DNA from: Dyella dinghuensis
GTDB taxonomy: Bacteria > Pseudomonadota > Gammaproteobacteria > Xanthomonadales > Rhodanobacteraceae
Length of the DNA: 64,000 nucleotides
Assembly (NCBI RefSeq): GCF_003977615.1
Contig: NZ_RYZR01000005.1
Coordinates: 496,001 to 560,000, forward strand
Direction: 5' to 3'
This document shows, in pieces, positions 2,861 to 27,431 of this stretch (the first letter of the stretch is position 1; every line of letters begins with the position of its first letter). A program made the position numbers and the translations under genes. The notes beneath the pieces were generated by a model, which was not told where the DNA came from, did not search any database, and saw only the letters and a list, made by a program, of their open reading frames with translations.

Positions 2861-4702
2861 TTACTTCTTTTTCGGCATATACAAATCGGTGATGGTGCCC
2901 TCGTAGGCTTCCGCCGCCATGCCCACCGATTCGCTCAAGGTCGGATGCGGATGGATGGTGAGGCCGATATCCGCCGCTTCGCTGCCCATTTCGATGGCGA
3001 GCGCGACTTCGGAAATCAGATCGCCCGCGTGCGGACCGATGATGGCGCCGCCGACGATGCGATGCGTTTCTTCGTCGAAGATCAGCTTGGTGAAGCCTTC
3101 GGTGCGATCGATGCCGATCGCGCGGCCACTGGCGGCCCACGGGAATTTGCCCACGCCGACCTTCAAGCCTTTCTCTTTCGCCTCGCGCTCGGTGACGCCG
3201 ACCCATGCCACTTCCGGATCGGTGTACGCGACGGACGGAATCACGCGCGCGTCGAAATAGCTCTTCTGACCGGCGACGACTTCGGCGGCGACTTTCGCTT
3301 CATGCGTGGCTTTATGCGCCAGCATCGGCTGGCCGACGATATCGCCGATAGCGAAGATGTGCTTCACGTTGGTGCGCATCTGCGTATCGACGTCGATGAA
3401 GCCACGATCCGTGACGGCAACACCCGCTTTCTCTACACCGATCTTCTTGCCATTCGGCGTACGGCCCACGGCGACCAAGACGCGATCGAACACGGTGGTC
3501 GCAGGAATGTTTTCGCCTTCGTAGCTGACTTCGATGCCTTTCTTTGTCGCCTTCGCCTCGACCACTTTGGTCTTGAGGTGAATACCCTTGAGCTTGCCGC
3601 CCAGACGTTTGGCGAGCGGCTTGATCAGATCGGCATCGGTGCCCGGAATGATCTGGTCCATGAATTCGACCACGGTCACTTCGCTGCCGAGCGCGGAGTA
3701 CACGGTCGCCATTTCCAGACCGATGATGCCGCCACCGACGACCAGCAGTTTCGCCGGCACGTCCTTGATTTCCAGCGCGCCGGTGGAATCGACGATGCGA
3801 TCGTCGTCCCACGGGAAGGCAGGCAGCTTCACCGACTGCGAGCCCGCCGCGATGATGGCGTATTCGAAGCGGATGAGTTTCTTGCCGTCGGCGGTTTCCA
3901 CTTCCAGTTCGTTCGGCGACACGAAGGTACCGACACCCTGCACAACGCGCACTTTGCGCTGCTTCGCCATGCTGGCGAGACCGCCAGTGAGCTGGCCGAC
4001 CACCTTGGTCTTGAAGCTGCGCAGCTTGTCGATGTCGATCTTGGGTTTGCCGAAGGTGATGCCGTGTGCGGCCATCGCATCGGCTTCGTCGATCACGGCT
4101 GCAGCGTGCAGCAATGCCTTGGACGGAATGCAGCCGACATTGAGGCACACACCGCCGAGCGTGGCGTGGCGTTCAACCAGCACGGTGTCGACGCCAAGAT
4201 CGGCCGCACGGAAGGCAGCCGTATAGCCGCCCGGGCCGGAACCCAGCACGACGAGTTTGCATTCGATATCGGCGGCTCTTCCCGTTGAAGTCGCCGCTTG
4301 CGGCGCCTTTGCCTCCTCTCCCCTCTGGGGAGAGGATTGAGGTGAGAGGGCAGCGCTTGCGGGAGACGGGCTAGTGCCACTCGCTTTCGTGGAAGTACTT
4401 GGCGAGGGCAACCCCTCACCCCGGCCCTCTCCCCGTGGGGGAGAGGGAGTGTTGGCTTCGGCGGACGTTTCAAGCACCGCAATCACGGCACCTTCGGAAA
4501 CCTCATCGCCCACCTTGAGCTTGAGTTCCTTGATGACACCCGATGCGCTGGCGGGAATTTCCATCGTCGCCTTGTCGGATTCGAGCGTGATCAGGCTTTG
4601 CTCTTTCTCGACCTTGTCGCCGACTTTCACCAGCACTTCGATCACCGGCACGTTGTCGTGACCGCCGATATCGGGGACTTTCAATTCAATGGTATTGGCC
4701 AT
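2861..4702 (-). CDS. lpdA: dihydrolipoyl dehydrogenase (E3) with N-terminal lipoyl domain
   Basis: E3 of the pyruvate dehydrogenase complex; it reoxidises dihydrolipoamide and passes electrons through FAD to NAD+. Residues 1-80 are a lipoyl domain with Lys44 in ESDKATME. A linker of about residues 81-145 follows, then the FAD site GSGPGG at about 154-159, the redox disulfide Cys186/Cys191 in GGVCLNVGCIPSK, an NAD site (VVGGGIIGLE) and the C-terminal His586/Glu591 pair in HPHPTLSE. At 613 residues it is longer than plain E3 (about 475) because of the lipoyl domain. The linker is translated through two inverted REP-like palindromes, which give the low-complexity segments PSPPRGEGRGEG and SPQSSPQRGEE. 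It starts 14 bases after the aceF stop, as an operon. Confidence 0.97.
   Translation of the reverse strand: MANTIELKVPDIGGHDNVPVIEVLVKVGDKVEKEQSLITLESDKATMEIPASASGVIKELKLKVGDEVSEGAVIAVLETSAEANTPSPPRGEGRGEGLPSPSTSTKASGTSPSPASAALSPQSSPQRGEEAKAPQAATSTGRAADIECKLVVLGSGPGGYTAAFRAADLGVDTVLVERHATLGGVCLNVGCIPSKALLHAAAVIDEADAMAAHGITFGKPKIDIDKLRSFKTKVVGQLTGGLASMAKQRKVRVVQGVGTFVSPNELEVETADGKKLIRFEYAIIAAGSQSVKLPAFPWDDDRIVDSTGALEIKDVPAKLLVVGGGIIGLEMATVYSALGSEVTVVEFMDQIIPGTDADLIKPLAKRLGGKLKGIHLKTKVVEAKATKKGIEVSYEGENIPATTVFDRVLVAVGRTPNGKKIGVEKAGVAVTDRGFIDVDTQMRTNVKHIFAIGDIVGQPMLAHKATHEAKVAAEVVAGQKSYFDARVIPSVAYTDPEVAWVGVTEREAKEKGLKVGVGKFPWAASGRAIGIDRTEGFTKLIFDEETHRIVGGAIIGPHAGDLISEVALAIEMGSEAADIGLTIHPHPTLSESVGMAAEAYEGTITDLYMPKKK
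4313..4447. repeat. inverted pair of REP-like palindromes inside the lpdA coding sequence
   Basis: Two hairpin elements in opposite orientation. One has stem CCCTCTCCCC / GGGGAGAGGG at 4425-4447, preceded by CCCCTCACCCCGG. The other has stem CCTCTCCCC / GGGGAGAGG at 4315-4335, followed by ATTGAGGTGAGAGGG, the near reverse complement of the first flank. Such C-rich palindromes normally lie between genes in proteobacteria. Here both are read in frame as roughly residues 86-130 of the E3 linker. Confidence 0.8.
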
Positions 4703-4716
4703 GACGACGCTCCCTG

Positions 4717-6087
4717 TCAGAGCAACAGACGACGAATGTCGCCCAGCTGCGTGGCGAGGAAGGACGCAAAGCGCGCGGCAAGTGCACCGTCGATGACGCG
4801 GTGGTCATAGCTGAGCGAGAGCGGCAGGATCAGGCGCGGCGCGAATTCCTTGCCGTTCCACACGGGCTTGGTCTGCGCTTTGGACACACCGAGGATGGCC
4901 ACTTCCGGCGCGTTGACGATCGGCGTGAACGCCGTGCCGCCGATGCCGCCGAGCGAGGAGATCGAGAAGCAGCCACCCGACATGTCGTTCGGACCAAGCT
5001 TCTTGTCGCGCGCCTTCTTGGAAATCTCGCCCAGTTCAGCGGCCAGATCCAGCAAACCTTTCTTGTCGCAATCGCGAATCACCGGTACGACCAGACCATC
5101 GGGCGTATCGACGGCAATACCGATGTGGAAGTACTTCTTGAGCACCAGCTTCTCGCCGCTCTCATCAAGCGACGCATTGAACGTCGGGAATTTCTTCAGC
5201 GCCGCGACGACTGCCTTGATCTGGAACACGAGCGGCGTGACTTTCAGATCCTTGTTCTCTTCGCCGAGCTTCTTGCGGAAGGCTTCCAGCTCGGTGATGT
5301 CGGCATCTTCGTGCTGGGTGACGTGCGGAATCATCGCCCAGTTGCGCGCAAGGTTCGCGCCGGAAATCTTCTGGATGCGCGACAACTGCTTTTCTTCGAT
5401 CTCGCCGAACTTGGCGAAGTCGACTTTCGGCCACGGCAGCAGATTGAGACCGCCACCCGATACAGCGCCACCGGAAACCGGACGCGCACCGGAAGCGAGC
5501 GCATGCTTGACGTACGCGGTGACGTCTTCGCGCACGATGCGGCCGCCACGGCTGCTGCCCTTCACCTGATGGATATCCACGCCCAGTTCGCGAGCGAAGG
5601 CGCGGATGGCAGGACTGGCATACGGTGCGTCGCCCGGCATGACGAGTTTGGCGTCGATCGGCGGACGCGCCTGCGGCGATGCATCACCTTCGGGCACATT
5701 GCCAGGCAGGACGCTGCGGCCGCCTTGCGGTGCGGGTTCTTCCTTCACCTGCGGCGCGGGCGCCGGGACTGGTGCGGGTGCCGGCGCTTTTTTCTCGGCA
5801 GCCGGTTCGCTCTTGGCGGGACTGGGTGCCGGTGCGGCAGCGGCGTCTTCGGCTTCGATCATGGCGATGACGGCGCCTTCGGACACTTCGTCACCCACCT
5901 TCAATTTGATTTCCTTCACCACGCCGGCGAACGGCGCGGGGACTTCCATCGTCGCTTTGTCCGACTCCAGGGTGATCAGGCTTTGATCTTTCTCGACTTT
6001 GTCGCCGGGCTTGATCAACACCTCGATAACGGGAACGTCGGCGTTGCCACCGATATCGGGGACGCGGACTTCTTTCAGGTCAGCCAT
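4717..6087 (-). CDS. aceF: pyruvate dehydrogenase E2, dihydrolipoamide acetyltransferase
   Basis: The 456-residue core of the pyruvate dehydrogenase complex; it moves acetyl groups from lipoamide to CoA. It has a single lipoyl domain (1-80, Lys44 in ESDKATME), a long Ala/Pro-rich linker (about 85-145) and a peripheral subunit-binding domain (about 152-188, [16 protein letters not shown] to GRIVREDV). The C-terminal catalytic domain carries the DHRVIDG motif, with catalytic His429 and Asp433. E. coli E2 has three lipoyl domains; here one is on E2 and another on E3. Its E1 partner, aceE, lies about 16 kb away. It is probably transcribed with lpdA from a promoter near the palindrome at 6205-6218. 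Confidence 0.97.
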
Positions 6088-6204
6088 GATTTCTCCTGCA
6101 AATCCAAGGCGACCGCGATGGGGGAGGCGGGGGCGGCCGCAAGGCTTCCATCATAGCAACCGACGCCCAACTCGGACATGGCAAATCGGCCCAAATAGGC
6201 CATG

Positions 6205-6218
6205 CGCATACGTATGCG
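6205..6218. promoter_or_regulatory. 14-bp palindrome upstream of aceF-lpdA, candidate operator
   Basis: CGCATACGTATGCG is a perfect palindrome 118 bases upstream of the aceF start. The 12-mer CATACGTATGCG occurs identically upstream of aceE, and the core ATACGTAT occurs again directly before maeB. The role as an operator is inferred from this sharing. Confidence 0.5.
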
Positions 6219-17385: not shown

Positions 17386-17862
17386 TCAACCGCTGGTAGA
17401 CGCCGGCGCCGGTGCATTGCCACCGTTGTCGCGCGGCATGCTGTCGACCTGCCGCTGGTTTTCCTTTTCCAGCTTGAATTGCGCAAGGTCGATCGGGCGA
17501 ATCTGCTTGATCACGCACGGAATGTAAGGACGCCGCGTCAGCACCTTGTCGAAGCCGGTCTGCACCGTTCCGGCGAAACTGGTCAAACCAATCGAGGTGG
17601 TAATGGTGAGATTGCTGCAGGGCCAGACATCCAGCAGGTAGGCGCGATTGGATAGTGTGTAGACCACCAGCTGGGTGTCGCTGAGCGACTCCCAGGAATA
17701 AATTTGTGATCCGAATACCAGGCGAAAACTGCGAACAGGCGCGCCGGCAGCGGCGTTGTATGCCTGCTGGCGTTGCTGCAAACGTTGGTTATAAGGCTGG
17801 CTTGCACATGCCGCCAGCAACATCCCCATGAACACTGCAGATAAGACTTTCATCTTCGACAT
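17386..17862 (-). CDS. DUF6491-type lipoprotein, copy 2
   Basis: A 158-residue paralog of the protein at 16555-17016. Shared landmarks are the lipobox (MLLAAC), the YNAAAGAPVRSFR segment, SWESLSDTQLVVYT, AYLLDVWPC, GLTS, LDKVL/FDKVLT, PYIPCVIKQIRPIDLAQ and an acidic/Pro tail. The ATG at 17862 has GGAGGA 7 bases upstream; the longer frame to 17919 lacks a signal. Two cysteines besides the lipid-linked one are conserved in both copies and could form a disulfide. Function unknown. Confidence 0.8.
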   Translation of the reverse strand: MSKMKVLSAVFMGMLLAACASQPYNQRLQQRQQAYNAAAGAPVRSFRLVFGSQIYSWESLSDTQLVVYTLSNRAYLLDVWPCSNLTITTSIGLTSFAGTVQTGFDKVLTRRPYIPCVIKQIRPIDLAQFKLEKENQRQVDSMPRDNGGNAPAPASTSG

Positions 17863-22174: not shown

Positions 22175-24868
22175 TTACACCGACTGCGGATTCGGCTTAT
22201 CCGGATCGAGCTTGTACTCGCGGATGGCGCGCGCGACGTCCTTGGCGTTGACCTTGCCGTCCTTCGCCAGTGCGGCAAGTGCGGCGTGCGCGATCCAGTA
22301 GCGATCCACTTCGAAGAAGTTGCGCAGGTGTTCGCGTGTATCCGAACGGCCAAAACCATCGGTGCCCAGTACGGTGAAACGCATCCCATCCGGCATGAAG
22401 GCGCGGATCTGATCGGCGTATTCGCGCACGTAATCCGTTGCGGCAATCGCCGGACCCTGATGACCTTGCAGCAAGCCGGTGACGTACGGCACGCGCTGTT
22501 CGGATTCCGGATGCAGGCGGTTCCAGCGTTCGGCGTCGAAACCGTCGCGACGCAATTCGCTGAAGCTGGGCACGGACCAGATGTCGGCGCTGACGCCGAA
22601 ATCTTTCTCAAGCAATTCGGCTGCAGCGATCACTTCGCGCAGGATGGTGCCGGAGCCGAGCAACTGCACGCGCGTGTCGCCCTTCTTCGCCTTGCCGCCG
22701 TCCTTGAACAAATACATACCCTTGATGATGCCCTCTTCCACGCCTTGCGGCAGGTCGGGGTGGGCGTAGTTTTCGTTCATGACCGTGAGGTAGTAGTACA
22801 CATCCTCCTGGTCTTCGAGCATGCGGCGCGTGCCGTCCTGCAGGATCACGGCCACTTCGTAGGAGAAGGTCGGATCGTAGGCGCGCACGTTCGGGATCGC
22901 ACCGGCGAGCAGGTGCGAGTGACCGTCTTCGTGCTGCAGGCCTTCACCGTTCAACGTGGTGCGTCCGGCCGTACCGCCGATCAGGAAGCCGCGCGAGCGC
23001 ATATCGCCTGCCGCCCACGCGAGATCGCCGATGCGCTGGAAGCCGAACATCGAGTAGTAGATGAAGAACGGCAACATGGGTGTGTTGCTGATGCTGTAGC
23101 TGGTCGCCGCTGCCATCCATGCGGCCATGCCGCCGGCTTCGGAAATACCTTCCTGCAGCACTTGGCCCTTCTGGTCTTCGCGGTAGTACAGCAACTGGTC
23201 GGCATCCTGCGGACGGTACTTCTGGCCGAATGGCGCATAGATACCGATCTGGCGGAACATGCCTTCCATACCGAACGTGCGTGCTTCGTCGGCGACGATC
23301 GGCACCACACGCGGACCGATGGCCTTGTCACGCAGCAACAGATTCATGCCGCGCACGAGCGCCATGGTGGTGGAAATTTCGCGGTCGCCGGTGCCCTTGG
23401 TGATCTGTTCGAATCCGGCCAGATCCGGCGCCTTGAGCTTGACGTCGGTATGACGGCGACGCTGCGGCAGGAAGCCACCGAGTTCCTTGCGGCGCTCGAG
23501 CATGTACTGCACTTCGGCCGAATCCTTGCCGGGGTGGTAGTACGGCACATCCTTGAGCTTGTCGTCGGTCACCGGAATATTGAAGCGGTCGCGGAAGTGA
23601 CGCACGGCTTCGTCGTCCAGCTTCTTCTGCTGGTGCGTCGGGTTCTGCGATTCGCCTGCGGCACCCATGCCATAGCCCTTCACCGTCTTGGCGAGGATCA
23701 CGGTGGGCATGCCCTTGGTGTTCACCGCCTGGTGGTAAGCCGCATAAACCTTGTGCGGATCGTGACCGCCGCGGTTCAAGCGCCAGATGTCGTCATCGCT
23801 CAGATTGGTGACCATCTCGCGCGTCTCCGGATATTTCCCGAAGAAATGCTCGCGTGTGTATGCGCCACCGAAGGCTTTGCAGGCCTGGTATTCGCCGTCG
23901 ACGGTTTCCATCATCAGCTTGCGCAGGACGCCCCTGGTGTCGCGCGCGAGAAGCGGGTCCCAGTAGCTGCCCCACACCACCTTCAGTGCGTTCCAGCCGG
24001 CGCCACGGAACACACCTTCCAGTTCCTGGATGATCTTGCCGTTGCCGCGCACGGGACCGTCGAGACGCTGCAGGTTGGCGTTGATCACGAAGATCAGGTT
24101 GTCCAGCCCTTCGCGGCCGGCCAGCGCGATAGCGCCGAGCGATTCGGGTTCGTCCGTTTCGCCGTCGCCCATGAAGCACCAGATCTTTCGATCGGACTTC
24201 GGAATGAGGCCACGGTGTTCGAGGTATTTCCAGAACTGTGCCTGATAGATCGCCTGGATCGGACCCAGGCCCATCGATACCGTCGGCACCTGCCAGTAAT
24301 CGGGCATCAGCCACGGATGCGGGTACGAGGACAGGCCGCGACCGTGACCGGCGACTTCCATGCGGAAGAGATCGAGCTGATCTTCGCCAATGCGGCCTTC
24401 GAGGAACGAACGCGCGTAGATGCCGGGGCTGGAATGGCCCTGATGGAACACGAGATCGCCCGGATGATCGGCACTCGGCGCACGCCAGAAATGATTGAAA
24501 CCGACGTCATAAAGCGTCGCCGACGAGGCGAAGCTGGCGATATGACCGCCCAATTCGCCAGGCTTGCGGTTGGCGCGCACGACCATCGCCATCGCGTTCC
24601 AGCGGATCAGCGTGCGGATGCGCCATTCCATCGCGGCATCGCCGGGCATCTTCGCTTCCAGATGCGTAGGGATGGTGTTGACGTATTCGGTGGTCGGATC
24701 GAACGGCAAATAGCCGCCCGAACGACGTGTGGAATCGACCAGCTTTTCCAGCAGGAAATGCGCGCGTTCGGTGCCTTCGCGATTGATGACGGCACTGAGC
24801 GATTCAACCCATTCCTGGGTTTCGGTAGGGTCGAGGTCCTGGTGGAGGATATCGTCGATCTGATCCAT
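22175..24868 (-). CDS. aceE: pyruvate dehydrogenase E1 component, homodimeric
   Basis: An 897-residue thiamin-diphosphate enzyme that decarboxylates pyruvate and acetylates the lipoyl group of E2. It begins MDQIDDILHQDLDPTETQEW, as E1p does. The ThDP/Mg motif is at about 230-266 (GDGETDEPES to NANLQRLDG), the GYGMGAAGE loop is mid-chain, and the transketolase-like C-terminal domain contains YEVAVILQDGTRRMLEDQEDVYYYLTVMNENY. Length fits E. coli AceE (887). The start at 24868 is supported by a GGAGA motif upstream; the longer frame adds 35 Arg-rich residues. It stands alone here, about 16 kb from aceF-lpdA, and shares an upstream palindrome with that operon. Confidence 0.97.
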   Translation of the reverse strand: MDQIDDILHQDLDPTETQEWVESLSAVINREGTERAHFLLEKLVDSTRRSGGYLPFDPTTEYVNTIPTHLEAKMPGDAAMEWRIRTLIRWNAMAMVVRANRKPGELGGHIASFASSATLYDVGFNHFWRAPSADHPGDLVFHQGHSSPGIYARSFLEGRIGEDQLDLFRMEVAGHGRGLSSYPHPWLMPDYWQVPTVSMGLGPIQAIYQAQFWKYLEHRGLIPKSDRKIWCFMGDGETDEPESLGAIALAGREGLDNLIFVINANLQRLDGPVRGNGKIIQELEGVFRGAGWNALKVVWGSYWDPLLARDTRGVLRKLMMETVDGEYQACKAFGGAYTREHFFGKYPETREMVTNLSDDDIWRLNRGGHDPHKVYAAYHQAVNTKGMPTVILAKTVKGYGMGAAGESQNPTHQQKKLDDEAVRHFRDRFNIPVTDDKLKDVPYYHPGKDSAEVQYMLERRKELGGFLPQRRRHTDVKLKAPDLAGFEQITKGTGDREISTTMALVRGMNLLLRDKAIGPRVVPIVADEARTFGMEGMFRQIGIYAPFGQKYRPQDADQLLYYREDQKGQVLQEGISEAGGMAAWMAAATSYSISNTPMLPFFIYYSMFGFQRIGDLAWAAGDMRSRGFLIGGTAGRTTLNGEGLQHEDGHSHLLAGAIPNVRAYDPTFSYEVAVILQDGTRRMLEDQEDVYYYLTVMNENYAHPDLPQGVEEGIIKGMYLFKDGGKAKKGDTRVQLLGSGTILREVIAAAELLEKDFGVSADIWSVPSFSELRRDGFDAERWNRLHPESEQRVPYVTGLLQGHQGPAIAATDYVREYADQIRAFMPDGMRFTVLGTDGFGRSDTREHLRNFFEVDRYWIAHAALAALAKDGKVNAKDVARAIREYKLDPDKPNPQSV

Positions 24869-25058
24869 GGAACGTCTCCGCGGCGCCCGGCGCCGCCTTG
24901 CGGTGGATGCGCGTCGCTGGGGAGGCGACGAAACCGTTGCATCGGTTCGGCGGCAACGTGCCGGCACGGACAAGACCGCGTGGCGAGGGCGCCGCTGGAC
25001 GAGCTAAGACTTCTGATTCTAGCTGTCGCGCGGCGATCTAGCCAATTGAAAAGCACTA

Positions 25059-25070
25059 CATACGTATGCG
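25059..25070. promoter_or_regulatory. palindrome upstream of aceE, candidate operator shared with aceF
   Basis: CATACGTATG (25059-25068) is a perfect palindrome, and the 12-mer CATACGTATGCG is identical to that upstream of aceF. It lies 191 bases upstream of the aceE start, beyond the end of maeB. Function is inferred. Confidence 0.5.
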
Positions 25071-25114
25071 CACGGCTGAAGTCCTTCTCTCACGGAGAAG
25101 TAGGCAGCCGTGCG
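25069..25114 (-). other. long stem-loop between maeB and aceE
   Basis: An outer 10-bp perfect stem (CGCACGGCTG / CAGCCGTGCG) encloses an inner 6-bp stem (CTTCTC / GAGAAG) with a 5-base loop. It lies 26 bases after the maeB stop and abuts the candidate operator. There is no T-run, so it may be a 3' end or processing structure of the maeB transcript rather than a classical terminator. Confidence 0.6.
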
Positions 25115-25139: not shown

Positions 25140-27431
25140 TCAGCTGGCGCGCTCGCTTTGTGCCGCACGAATCTGTGCGTCCACGGCGGCAATGGCCGTC
25201 ATGTTGATGACACGACGTACGGTCGATGAGGGGGTAAGGATATGAGCCGGCTTGTCGACGCCCATCAGGATCGGCCCGATCGCCACACCGTCGGTCATGA
25301 CACGCACCATGTTGTACGTGATGTTGGCGGCATCGAGGTTGGGCATCACGAACAGATTGGCGCGACCGCTCAGCGTCGTATTGGGGAAGATGCGTTCGCG
25401 CAGCACTTCGTCCCATGCCGTATCGGCCTGCATTTCACCGTCCACTTCGAGCCGCGGCGCACGCGCCCTGAGAATCTTGTAGACCTCGCGCATCTTGGCT
25501 GCGCTGGCATTCTCATGACTGCCGTAGTTGGAGTGCGACAGCAACGCCACCTTGGGCTCGACACCAAACAGCTTGAGACGATACGTAGCCTGCAAGGTTG
25601 CCTCGGCAATCTGCTCGGCGGTGGGATCGCACTGCACATGGGTATCGAGGAAGAACCAGGTGCCCTTGTCGTTGATGACGCCACTCATCGCCGAGGTGCA
25701 TGACACACCCGGATCGAGACCGAACACGCTGCGAATGTAGCCGAGCTTCTTGTGATAACGGCCGACCAGGCCGCAGATCATTGCGTCGGCTTCGCCACGC
25801 TCCACCATGATCGCGGCGATGAGCGTCGTGCGCGAACGCAACAGGTTTTTCGCGGCAGCGGGCGACACACCGCGTCGCTCGGTTAGTGCGTGATAGGTCT
25901 GCCAGTACTCGTTGAATCGCGGATCGTCGTTGATGTTGGTGAGTTCGAAATCGACACCCGGACGCATGCGCAGGCCCAGGCGCTCGATACGGTTTTCGAT
26001 AACGTCCGGGCGGCCGACCAGAATCGGATAAGCGAGCTTTTCGTCGATCACCGTTTGCACGGCACGCAACACGGTTTCTTCTTCGCCTTCGCCATACACC
26101 ACGCGCTTGCGGTCCGCGCGTGCGCGCTCGTACACCGGCTTCATGATGAGACCGGTGCGATAGATGAACTGCGCGAGTTTCTCGACGTACGCGTCCATAT
26201 CGTTGATGGGACGCGTCGCGACACCCGAATCCATCGCGGCGATCGCCACGGCCGGCGCCAGCATCACCAGCAGGCGCGGATCGAAGGGACGCGGAATAAG
26301 GTATTCGGGGCCGAATGTCGGCGGCTCACCGCCGTAGGCACCGGCGAGATCGCCCGATTCCATCCGCGCCAACGCAGCAATCGCGCGCACGCAGGCGAGC
26401 TTCATCGCCTCGTTGATGCCGGTCGCGCCGACATCGAGCGCGCCGCGAAAGATGTAGGGAAAGCACAAGGCGTTGTTGACCTGGTTCGGGTAATCCGAAC
26501 GGCCTGTCGCGATGATGCAATCCGGGCGCACCTTCTTCGCTTCTTCCGGCAGGATTTCCGGCGTCGGATTGGCAAGGGCCAGGATGATCGGCTTGTCCGC
26601 CATCGTCGCGACCATCTCCGGCTTCAGAATGCCGCCGGCGGACAGGCCGAGGAAAATATCGGCACCATCGACAATCTCGGCCAGCGTGCGTGCCTTGGTG
26701 TCGCGCGCGTAACGTTGTTTGTCGGGATCCATCTGGTCCCGTCCGGTATACATCACGCCTTCGCGGTCGTACGCGAGAATGTTTTCCGGTTTCAGTCCGA
26801 GCGCCACCAGCATGTCCAGGCACGCAATGCCCGCCGCGCCCGCACCGGCCGTGGCCAGCTTCACGTTCTGGATTTTCTTGCCGACGATTTCCAGCGCATT
26901 GAGAACCGCCGCACCCACGATAATCGCGGTGCCATGCTGATCGTCGTGGAATACCGGAATCTTCATCCGTTCGCGCAGCTTGCGCTCGACAATGAAACAC
27001 TCCGGTGCCTTGATGTCTTCCAGGTTGATGCCGCCGAACGTCGGCTCCATCGAGGCGATGATGTCGACCAGCTTGTCCGGATCGCGCTCGGCCAGCTCGA
27101 TGTCGAACACGTCGATGCCCGCGAATTTCTGGAACAGCACACCCTTGCCTTCCATCACCGGCTTGCCGGCGAGCGGGCCGATATCGCCCAGACCCAACAC
27201 CGCGGTGCCATTGGTGATGACGGCGACCAGATTGGCGCGTGCCGTCATCTCGCTGGCGGCCTGGGGATCTTCAACGATAGCCTCGCACGCGTAGGCCACA
27301 CCCGGCGAATACGCCAGCGACAGGTCGCGCTGGGTCAGCAGCGAGGTGGTCGGCGAGACCTTGATCTTGCCCGGGCGCGGGTAGCGGTGGTAATCGAGTG
27401 CGGCTTTGCGGAAGTCGTCGGAATGAGCCAT
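25140..27431 (-). CDS. maeB: NADP-dependent malic enzyme with C-terminal phosphotransacetylase-like domain
   Basis: A 763-residue fusion of the MaeB type, which converts malate to pyruvate, CO2 and NADPH. Residues 1-about 430 are the malic enzyme: [45 protein letters not shown] and the dinucleotide site [15 protein letters not shown]. Residues about 430-763 are a phosphate acetyltransferase-like domain ([59 protein letters not shown]). In E. coli MaeB this domain mediates allosteric control by acetyl-CoA and has no PTA activity. The ATG at 27431 fits the family N-terminus. A 14-bp palindrome ends 9 bases upstream. Confidence 0.96.

Follow-up and report, generated by a model that had tools for sequence, protein, structure and literature searches.

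Which regulator, if any, acts on the palindrome shared by the aceF-lpd and aceE genes of Dyella dinghuensis? Within the 64,000-nucleotide stretch of DNA that was analyzed (the window), a perfect 14-bp palindrome, CGCATACGTATGCG, was identified at positions 6205-6218, between the end of an mscS-like gene and aceF, and the related CATACGTATG at 25059-25068, between maeB and aceE. The initial annotation had reported an identical 12-mer upstream of aceF and aceE, and we confirmed both sites and found them conserved within the genus. The 12-mer CATACGTATGCG was identified at 2 places in the window, 6205-6218 (on both strands) and 25059-25070, with 0.03 expected from shuffles, and the 8-mer ATACGTAT at 3 places (6208, 25060, and 27443), with 0.16 expected and none of 100 shuffles reaching 3. 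The genes and presumed operators are as follows:

2861..4702, minus strand: lpd, dihydrolipoyl dehydrogenase with an N-terminal lipoyl domain, presumed target 3′ of aceF (TIGR01350, over cut-off)
4717..6087, minus strand: aceF, dihydrolipoyl acetyltransferase, presumed target (NCBIfam TIGR01348, over cut-off)
6205..6218, no strand assigned: presumed aceF-lpd operator CGCATACGTATGCG, about 120-130 bp 5′ of the aceF ATG, with ATACGTAT at this place in 16 of 16 genus genomes
22175..24868, minus strand: aceE, pyruvate dehydrogenase E1, presumed target (TIGR00759, over cut-off)
25058..25069, minus strand: presumed aceE operator, gene-strand reading GCATACGTATGT, about 200 bp 5′ of the aceE ATG, in 13 of 15 genus genomes
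starting at 27431, minus strand: maeB, named as in the initial annotation

The lipoamide dehydrogenase (2861-4702) has an additional N-terminal lipoyl domain resembling that of AceF.

The site had been described as distinct from the operator of PdhR, and this held, with the sole PdhR-type match in the window (up to 2 mismatches) at 17578, at neither operon. The PdhR operator consensus ATTGGTNNNACCAAT was not found upstream of aceE or aceF with up to 2 mismatches, which places neither gene in a PdhR regulon. A genome-wide count, which had been suggested as a check, gave 48 copies of ATACGTAT in 4.2 Mb, against 19 for the reversed control TATGCATA. Because 30 of the 48 fall within genes and 18 outside (by a crude gene caller), ATACGTAT alone is not diagnostic; the 8-mer is not rare, and conservation decides instead. 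Other noncoding copies lie near speE/speA, a MotA-like gene, a band-7 gene, and fimbrial genes. The gene maeB, also named as sharing the site, was rejected as a third regulon member, with an exact ATACGTAT within 300 bp in only 1 of 29 genomes, that of D. dinghuensis itself, and its site is probably due to chance.

Conservation of the aceF and aceE sites

Conservation in relatives, on which the original claim had been made to depend, was borne out within the genus. ATACGTAT was found at a fixed place, about 122-130 bp 5′ of the aceF ATG, in all 16 genomes, 15 of which had the exact GCATACGTATGC, and at a fixed place 5′ of aceE in 13 of 15 genomes, in all 13 as the gene-strand GCATACGTATGT, being absent from G008 and G012. 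Across the family, GCATACGTATGC with up to 2 mismatches was present at the same aceF place in 33 of 73 genomes, spanning 7 genera, and the aceE site was not found in 63 aceE regions from other genera and was seen in the Dyella genus only. The idea of a shared site is thus upheld by conservation at both operons but qualified by its unequal spread. Upstream regions of aceE were obtained from 78 of 80 genomes (none for G013 and G051) and those of aceF from 73 of 80, with no match at the E-value used in G016, G030, G039, G051, G063, and G073, and with G023 left out; second aceE or aceF copies (G015, G036, and G062) stand outside these counts. Contig C198 of G015 carries a second aceE and a second aceF together, both divergent (52% and 58% identity, respectively).

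Over 34 aceF regions from 7 genera, the site was the most conserved 12-column window, with 0.966 vs 0.88 for the ribosome-binding site; within the genus, the 2 tied. The aceE site was the fifth-ranked 12-column window within the genus (0.939).

Among named relatives, taken as the best 80 of at least 551 rows, 18 had a match within 400 bp of aceF with up to 2 mismatches, 12 of them at −128 to −145 and belonging to Dyella, Rhodanobacter, and one Lysobacterales MAG. Carriers in this set included Dyella lipolytica, D. nitratireducens, D. halodurans, D. amyloliquefaciens, and several Rhodanobacter. Absence was recorded, again among these 80, for Dyella EPa41, Rhodanobacter Root480, and one Rhodanobacter MAG (3 mismatches), and no match at the same thresholds was found in the Luteibacter, Xanthomonas, and Dokdonella rows. 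The 6 other matching rows of the 80 had the site at other distances (L401, Luteimonas; L408, L411, and L418, Stenotrophomonas; L417; and L419); L408, L411, L418, and L419, noted as 2 Stenotrophomonas and 2 MAGs, had one- or two-mismatch matches 91-184 bp 5′ of aceF.

A longer palindrome and a LacI-family gene

We identified 7 copies of a longer palindrome, the 14-mer TGMATACGTATKCA, in the D. dinghuensis genome and 0 of the reversed control. Six of them precede sugar or pyruvate kinase (pyk) genes, with 2 in the interval separating a TonB-dependent receptor gene from a GH13 glucosidase gene and 1 each 5′ of a GDE_C-like glycosidase, 67 bp 5′ of a sugar MFS transporter, 5′ of an alpha-amylase, and 378 bp (also given as −388) 5′ of pyruvate kinase; the seventh is at C9:28261. 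Outside the window, a LacI-family gene at 105206-106246 of contig C11 (genome G000) lies 7-16 kb from 3 of the 14-mer sites and adjoins a maltose/maltodextrin cluster including a TonB-dependent receptor, GH13, and other glycosidases. The encoded protein has an N-terminal LacI helix-turn-helix (PF00356; 58.6 bits vs a cut-off of 27) and a full-length architecture with a C-terminal sensor, its residues 7-340 matching PurR and 8-339 CcpA chains. It scores below the cut-off in each of the 17 NCBIfam families listed and is therefore no member of a named family; a FruR/Cra identity was rejected (NF008452, 72.7 bits vs a cut-off of 385). All 30 orthologues inspected carry the recognition helix VSQ[SA]TVSRALR, and 6 other LacI-family genes were identified in the same genome. 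No autoregulation site was matched in the regulator locus (L102) with up to 3 mismatches.

LacI-family operators are usually even palindromes with a central CG, and the 14-mer, which co-occurs with the orthologous regulator, has this form. In a test of 69 family genomes, where best matches to the gene had at least 64% identity, the exact 14-mer was present in 49 of 50 genomes with the regulator and 0 of 19 without it (Fisher 4e-16, uncorrected for kinship), the exception being G023, with the regulator present and the exact 14-mer absent. The 14-mer was found at 169 places in family genomes, vs 2 for the reversed control. Six genera hold genomes both with and without the regulator, and all agree (the regulator-less G051 is only 85% complete). 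Since 16 of the 19 regulator-less genomes carry other LacI-family genes, the 14-mer goes with the C11 protein and not with the LacI family at large. The distance from 14-mer to regulator gene was 2-36 kb in 19 of 21 genomes and 101 kb in 1, with the 2 on different contigs in the last; for a few of these genomes only part of the sites entered the count, and some lie on very long or single contigs, where a shared contig by itself says little.

At pyk, the exact 14-mer at −388 was rejected as a conserved site, its position not being conserved. A variant (TGCATWCGWWTGCA-like, up to 3 mismatches) was identified about 84 bp 5′ of the ATG in 10 of 16 genus genomes and at 51-90 bp in 4 of 14 others. 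The D. dinghuensis pyk (L098 4907 and upstream, C8:272906) is without the LacI-like palindrome at about 84 bp and has the exact operator at −388 instead, a possible case of site turnover. Against 200 permuted palindromes, the 14-mer with up to 2 mismatches was found in 14 of 30 genomes at pyk (control mean 0.09, largest 4) and in 29 of 73 at aceF (mean 0.3, largest 16); at aceE, with up to 3 mismatches, 14 of 78 genomes against a mean of 1.4 and a largest value of 13 is close.

From these sequence comparisons, we consider it reasonably probable that the palindromes are operators of one LacI/GalR regulator encoded beside the maltose cluster, likely activating, with targets that include pyk, aceF-lpd, and aceE. 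The C11 protein would recognize TGMATACGTATKCA and close variants and would most likely activate from sites just upstream of promoters that have a −10 but a poor −35. Its predicted targets would comprise maltose/starch genes, the sugar transporter, alpha-amylase, pyruvate kinase, aceF-lpd, and, in the Dyella genus only, aceE, and carbohydrate supply would thereby be coupled to pyruvate kinase and pyruvate dehydrogenase. The effector may be related to maltose or glucose, a guess from the gene cluster.

Promoter layout and the proposed regulator at the pyruvate dehydrogenase genes

The following presumed promoter elements were assigned:

6150..6155, minus strand: presumed aceF −10, TATGAT, with no good −35, conserved in alignments
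25016..25021, minus strand: presumed aceE −10, TAGAAT, ending 47-49 bp from the operator center
25040..25045, minus strand: presumed aceE −35, TTGGCT (TTGGCG in most relatives), from the genus alignment, including the 2 operator-less genomes

We counted 44 distinct, oriented maltose-type sites from 30 loci (one per genome, some with 2 sites, covering part of the 49 genomes with the 14-mer) and 3 D. dinghuensis loci, which include orthologous promoters and are non-independent; only sites reading TGAATACGTATGCA towards the gene were used, which excluded the sugar-transporter site with its opposite orientation. TANNNT ended 41-45 bp after the operator center in 39 of 44 (5, 25, 6, 2, and 1 cases at 41, 42, 43, 44, and 45 bp, respectively), with only 7 in all elsewhere between 21 and 100 bp. 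The 4 promoters of D. dinghuensis (amylase, GDE_C-like glycosidase, receptor, and GH13 glucosidase) had it ending at 41-43. The −35 region offered at best a 3-of-6 match to TTGACA in 38 of 39 cases, which does not exceed background. With a −10 ending at −7, the operator would be centered near −48, adjoining the −35, which is an activator's place; class II and class I activators such as CRP serve as the comparison.

At aceF, TAT[GC]AT ends 62-63 bp from the operator center in 29 of 33 site-bearing genomes, about 2 helical turns beyond the maltose-type spacing, and the remaining 4 sites, all of genus g18, have spacings of 71-76. At aceE, the presumed −35 matches TTGACA at 4 of 6 positions in 13 of 13 site-bearing genomes; because of this fair −35 and the other spacing (47-49), aceE need not depend on an activator. 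Because the sites lie upstream at a fixed distance from the −10, with a poor −35 at the maltose genes and aceF, we favor activation, with most weight on these and less on aceE.

The same LacI-family protein could bind these sites and repress, with a sugar as inducer, a reading that we regard as unlikely. Repressor sites usually overlap the promoter core, whereas the sites here keep a constant distance to a −10-like element and lie upstream of a −35 that does not rise above background. Most LacI-family members are nevertheless repressors with an inducer. At the Xanthomonas maltose locus, passages of one report likewise describe a "maltose transport gene repressor" and a maltose-induced receptor gene (PMC1790865).

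Three features around the aceE promoter were observed besides. CAATTGGC (25040-25048), adjoining the palindrome, persists in genomes from which the palindrome is missing; it is read here as the aceE −35 and could instead be the site of another protein. A hairpin with a perfect 9-bp stem (25070-25113) also adjoins the palindrome, is not conserved in the genus alignment, and could be the maeB terminator. The presumed aceE 5′ leader (24869-25015, about 150 bases from −10 to ATG) is strongly conserved in the genus and may hold further control elements.

We also compared the pyruvate dehydrogenase sites with the presence of the maltose-cluster regulator gene. Where the regulator is present, ATACGTAT was found within 500 bp upstream of aceE in 13 of 60 genomes and of aceF in 26 of 54; where it is absent, the counts were 0 of 18 and 2 of 19, respectively. 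The aceF site is present in 7 of the 18 regulator-bearing genera for which aceF data were available and missing from the other 11, so the co-occurrence of aceF alone with the regulator is weak. In G012, a member of the Dyella genus with the regulator absent, the aceE site is absent and the aceF site is kept with one change; in G013 (86% complete, regulator not found), the exact aceF site is kept. The link of the regulator to aceE and aceF is weaker than that to the maltose genes, and on sequence grounds we judge its assignment to be good for the maltose-type sites, fair for the aceF and pyk sites, and weaker for the aceE site.

A different regulator, either a LacI paralogue or a member of another family, might instead act at aceE and aceF, the likeness to the maltose operator being due to convergence or shared ancestry, and we hold this to be quite improbable. 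The aceF site kept in the regulator-less G012, the 6 other LacI-family genes of D. dinghuensis, and the 11 of 18 regulator-bearing genera without the aceF site all speak for it, as do the outer letters within the genus (CG..CG), which differ from those of the 14-mer. However, in other genera the usual reading of the aceF site is TGCATACGTATGCG, one letter from TGMATACGTATKCA, and no 14-mer was found in the 16 genomes having only other LacI-family genes. That the shared 12-mer is a coincidence or a structural element (terminator or repeat) with no regulator is very improbable, since its position is kept at aceF in 16 of 16 genomes and at aceE in 13 of 15 despite diverging flanks, it is the top-conserved window across the 34 aceF regions, and the hairpin adjoining the aceE site is not conserved, even though copies of ATACGTAT are not rare in the genome as a whole (48, of which the crude caller puts 30 within genes).

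The initial annotation had proposed a pyruvate or acetyl-CoA regulator different from PdhR. The difference from PdhR is supported, but the proposed type is not, as the site resembles the presumed LacI operator of the maltose cluster; the regulator at aceE and aceF thus looks like a sugar regulator.

Known systems and significance

Control of central metabolism by the LacI family is known for FruR in Enterobacteria, and passages of one comparative study predict PckR, GapR, and GluR in 3 alphaproteobacterial lineages (PMC4052901). As described there, all 4 (FruR also being called Cra) are LacI-family proteins with palindromic operators and targets in glycolysis and neighboring pathways, as the Dyella candidate would be; FruR and PckR act dually, GluR leaves its sites with glucose, and the mechanism of GapR is given as unknown (PMC4052901). 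The FruR and GluR regulons are described as grown from local ones, which is likewise proposed for the Dyella regulator, whereas PckR, GapR, and GluR belong to other lineages and are each stated to have their own motif (PMC4052901). The main text of that study contains neither "pyruvate dehydrogenase" nor "xanthomonad" (PMC4052901). AraQ and MalR1 of Bifidobacterium are also LacI-type and are reported to affect carbohydrate uptake genes and central carbon flux, but they belong to Actinobacteria and act on the bifid shunt, not pyruvate dehydrogenase (PMC6882875).

Two regulators of aceE and aceF described elsewhere share these targets and differ otherwise, according to excerpts of the respective reports: PdhR is of the GntR family, with its own operator and pyruvate as effector (PMC5343134), and RccR is HexR-like, with its own operator and KDPG as effector (PMC5489143). 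The maltose CUT locus of Xanthomonas campestris (XCC2469 region) is alike in gene content, combining a regulator gene with a TonB-dependent receptor, glucosidases, and a sugar transporter; maltose induces its receptor gene, but the passages describing it show no link to central metabolism (PMC1790865). No title or abstract listed from the open-access literature described a LacI regulator acting on pyruvate dehydrogenase in Dyella, Rhodanobacter, or Xanthomonas.

We raise, more tentatively, the possibility that a LacI activator, formerly of maltose genes and replacing, at constant spacing, a missing −35, took over pyk and pyruvate dehydrogenase stepwise in the Dyella-Rhodanobacter group, with aceF-lpd first and aceE later. 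The spread of the sites (aceF in 7 genera and aceE in 1) and the regulator-less G012 make such regulon growth directly testable. The LacI family is known mostly for repressors, and the arrangement described here would, if true, provide a clear activator layout within it. It would also add another proteobacterial lineage, beside those of FruR, PckR, GapR, and GluR, in which central carbon metabolism is under a LacI-type control of its own, here reaching pyruvate dehydrogenase. The match of the conserved palindrome to the presumed LacI operator at the maltose and starch genes suggests a link between sugar sensing and pyruvate dehydrogenase, which supplies the citric acid cycle.
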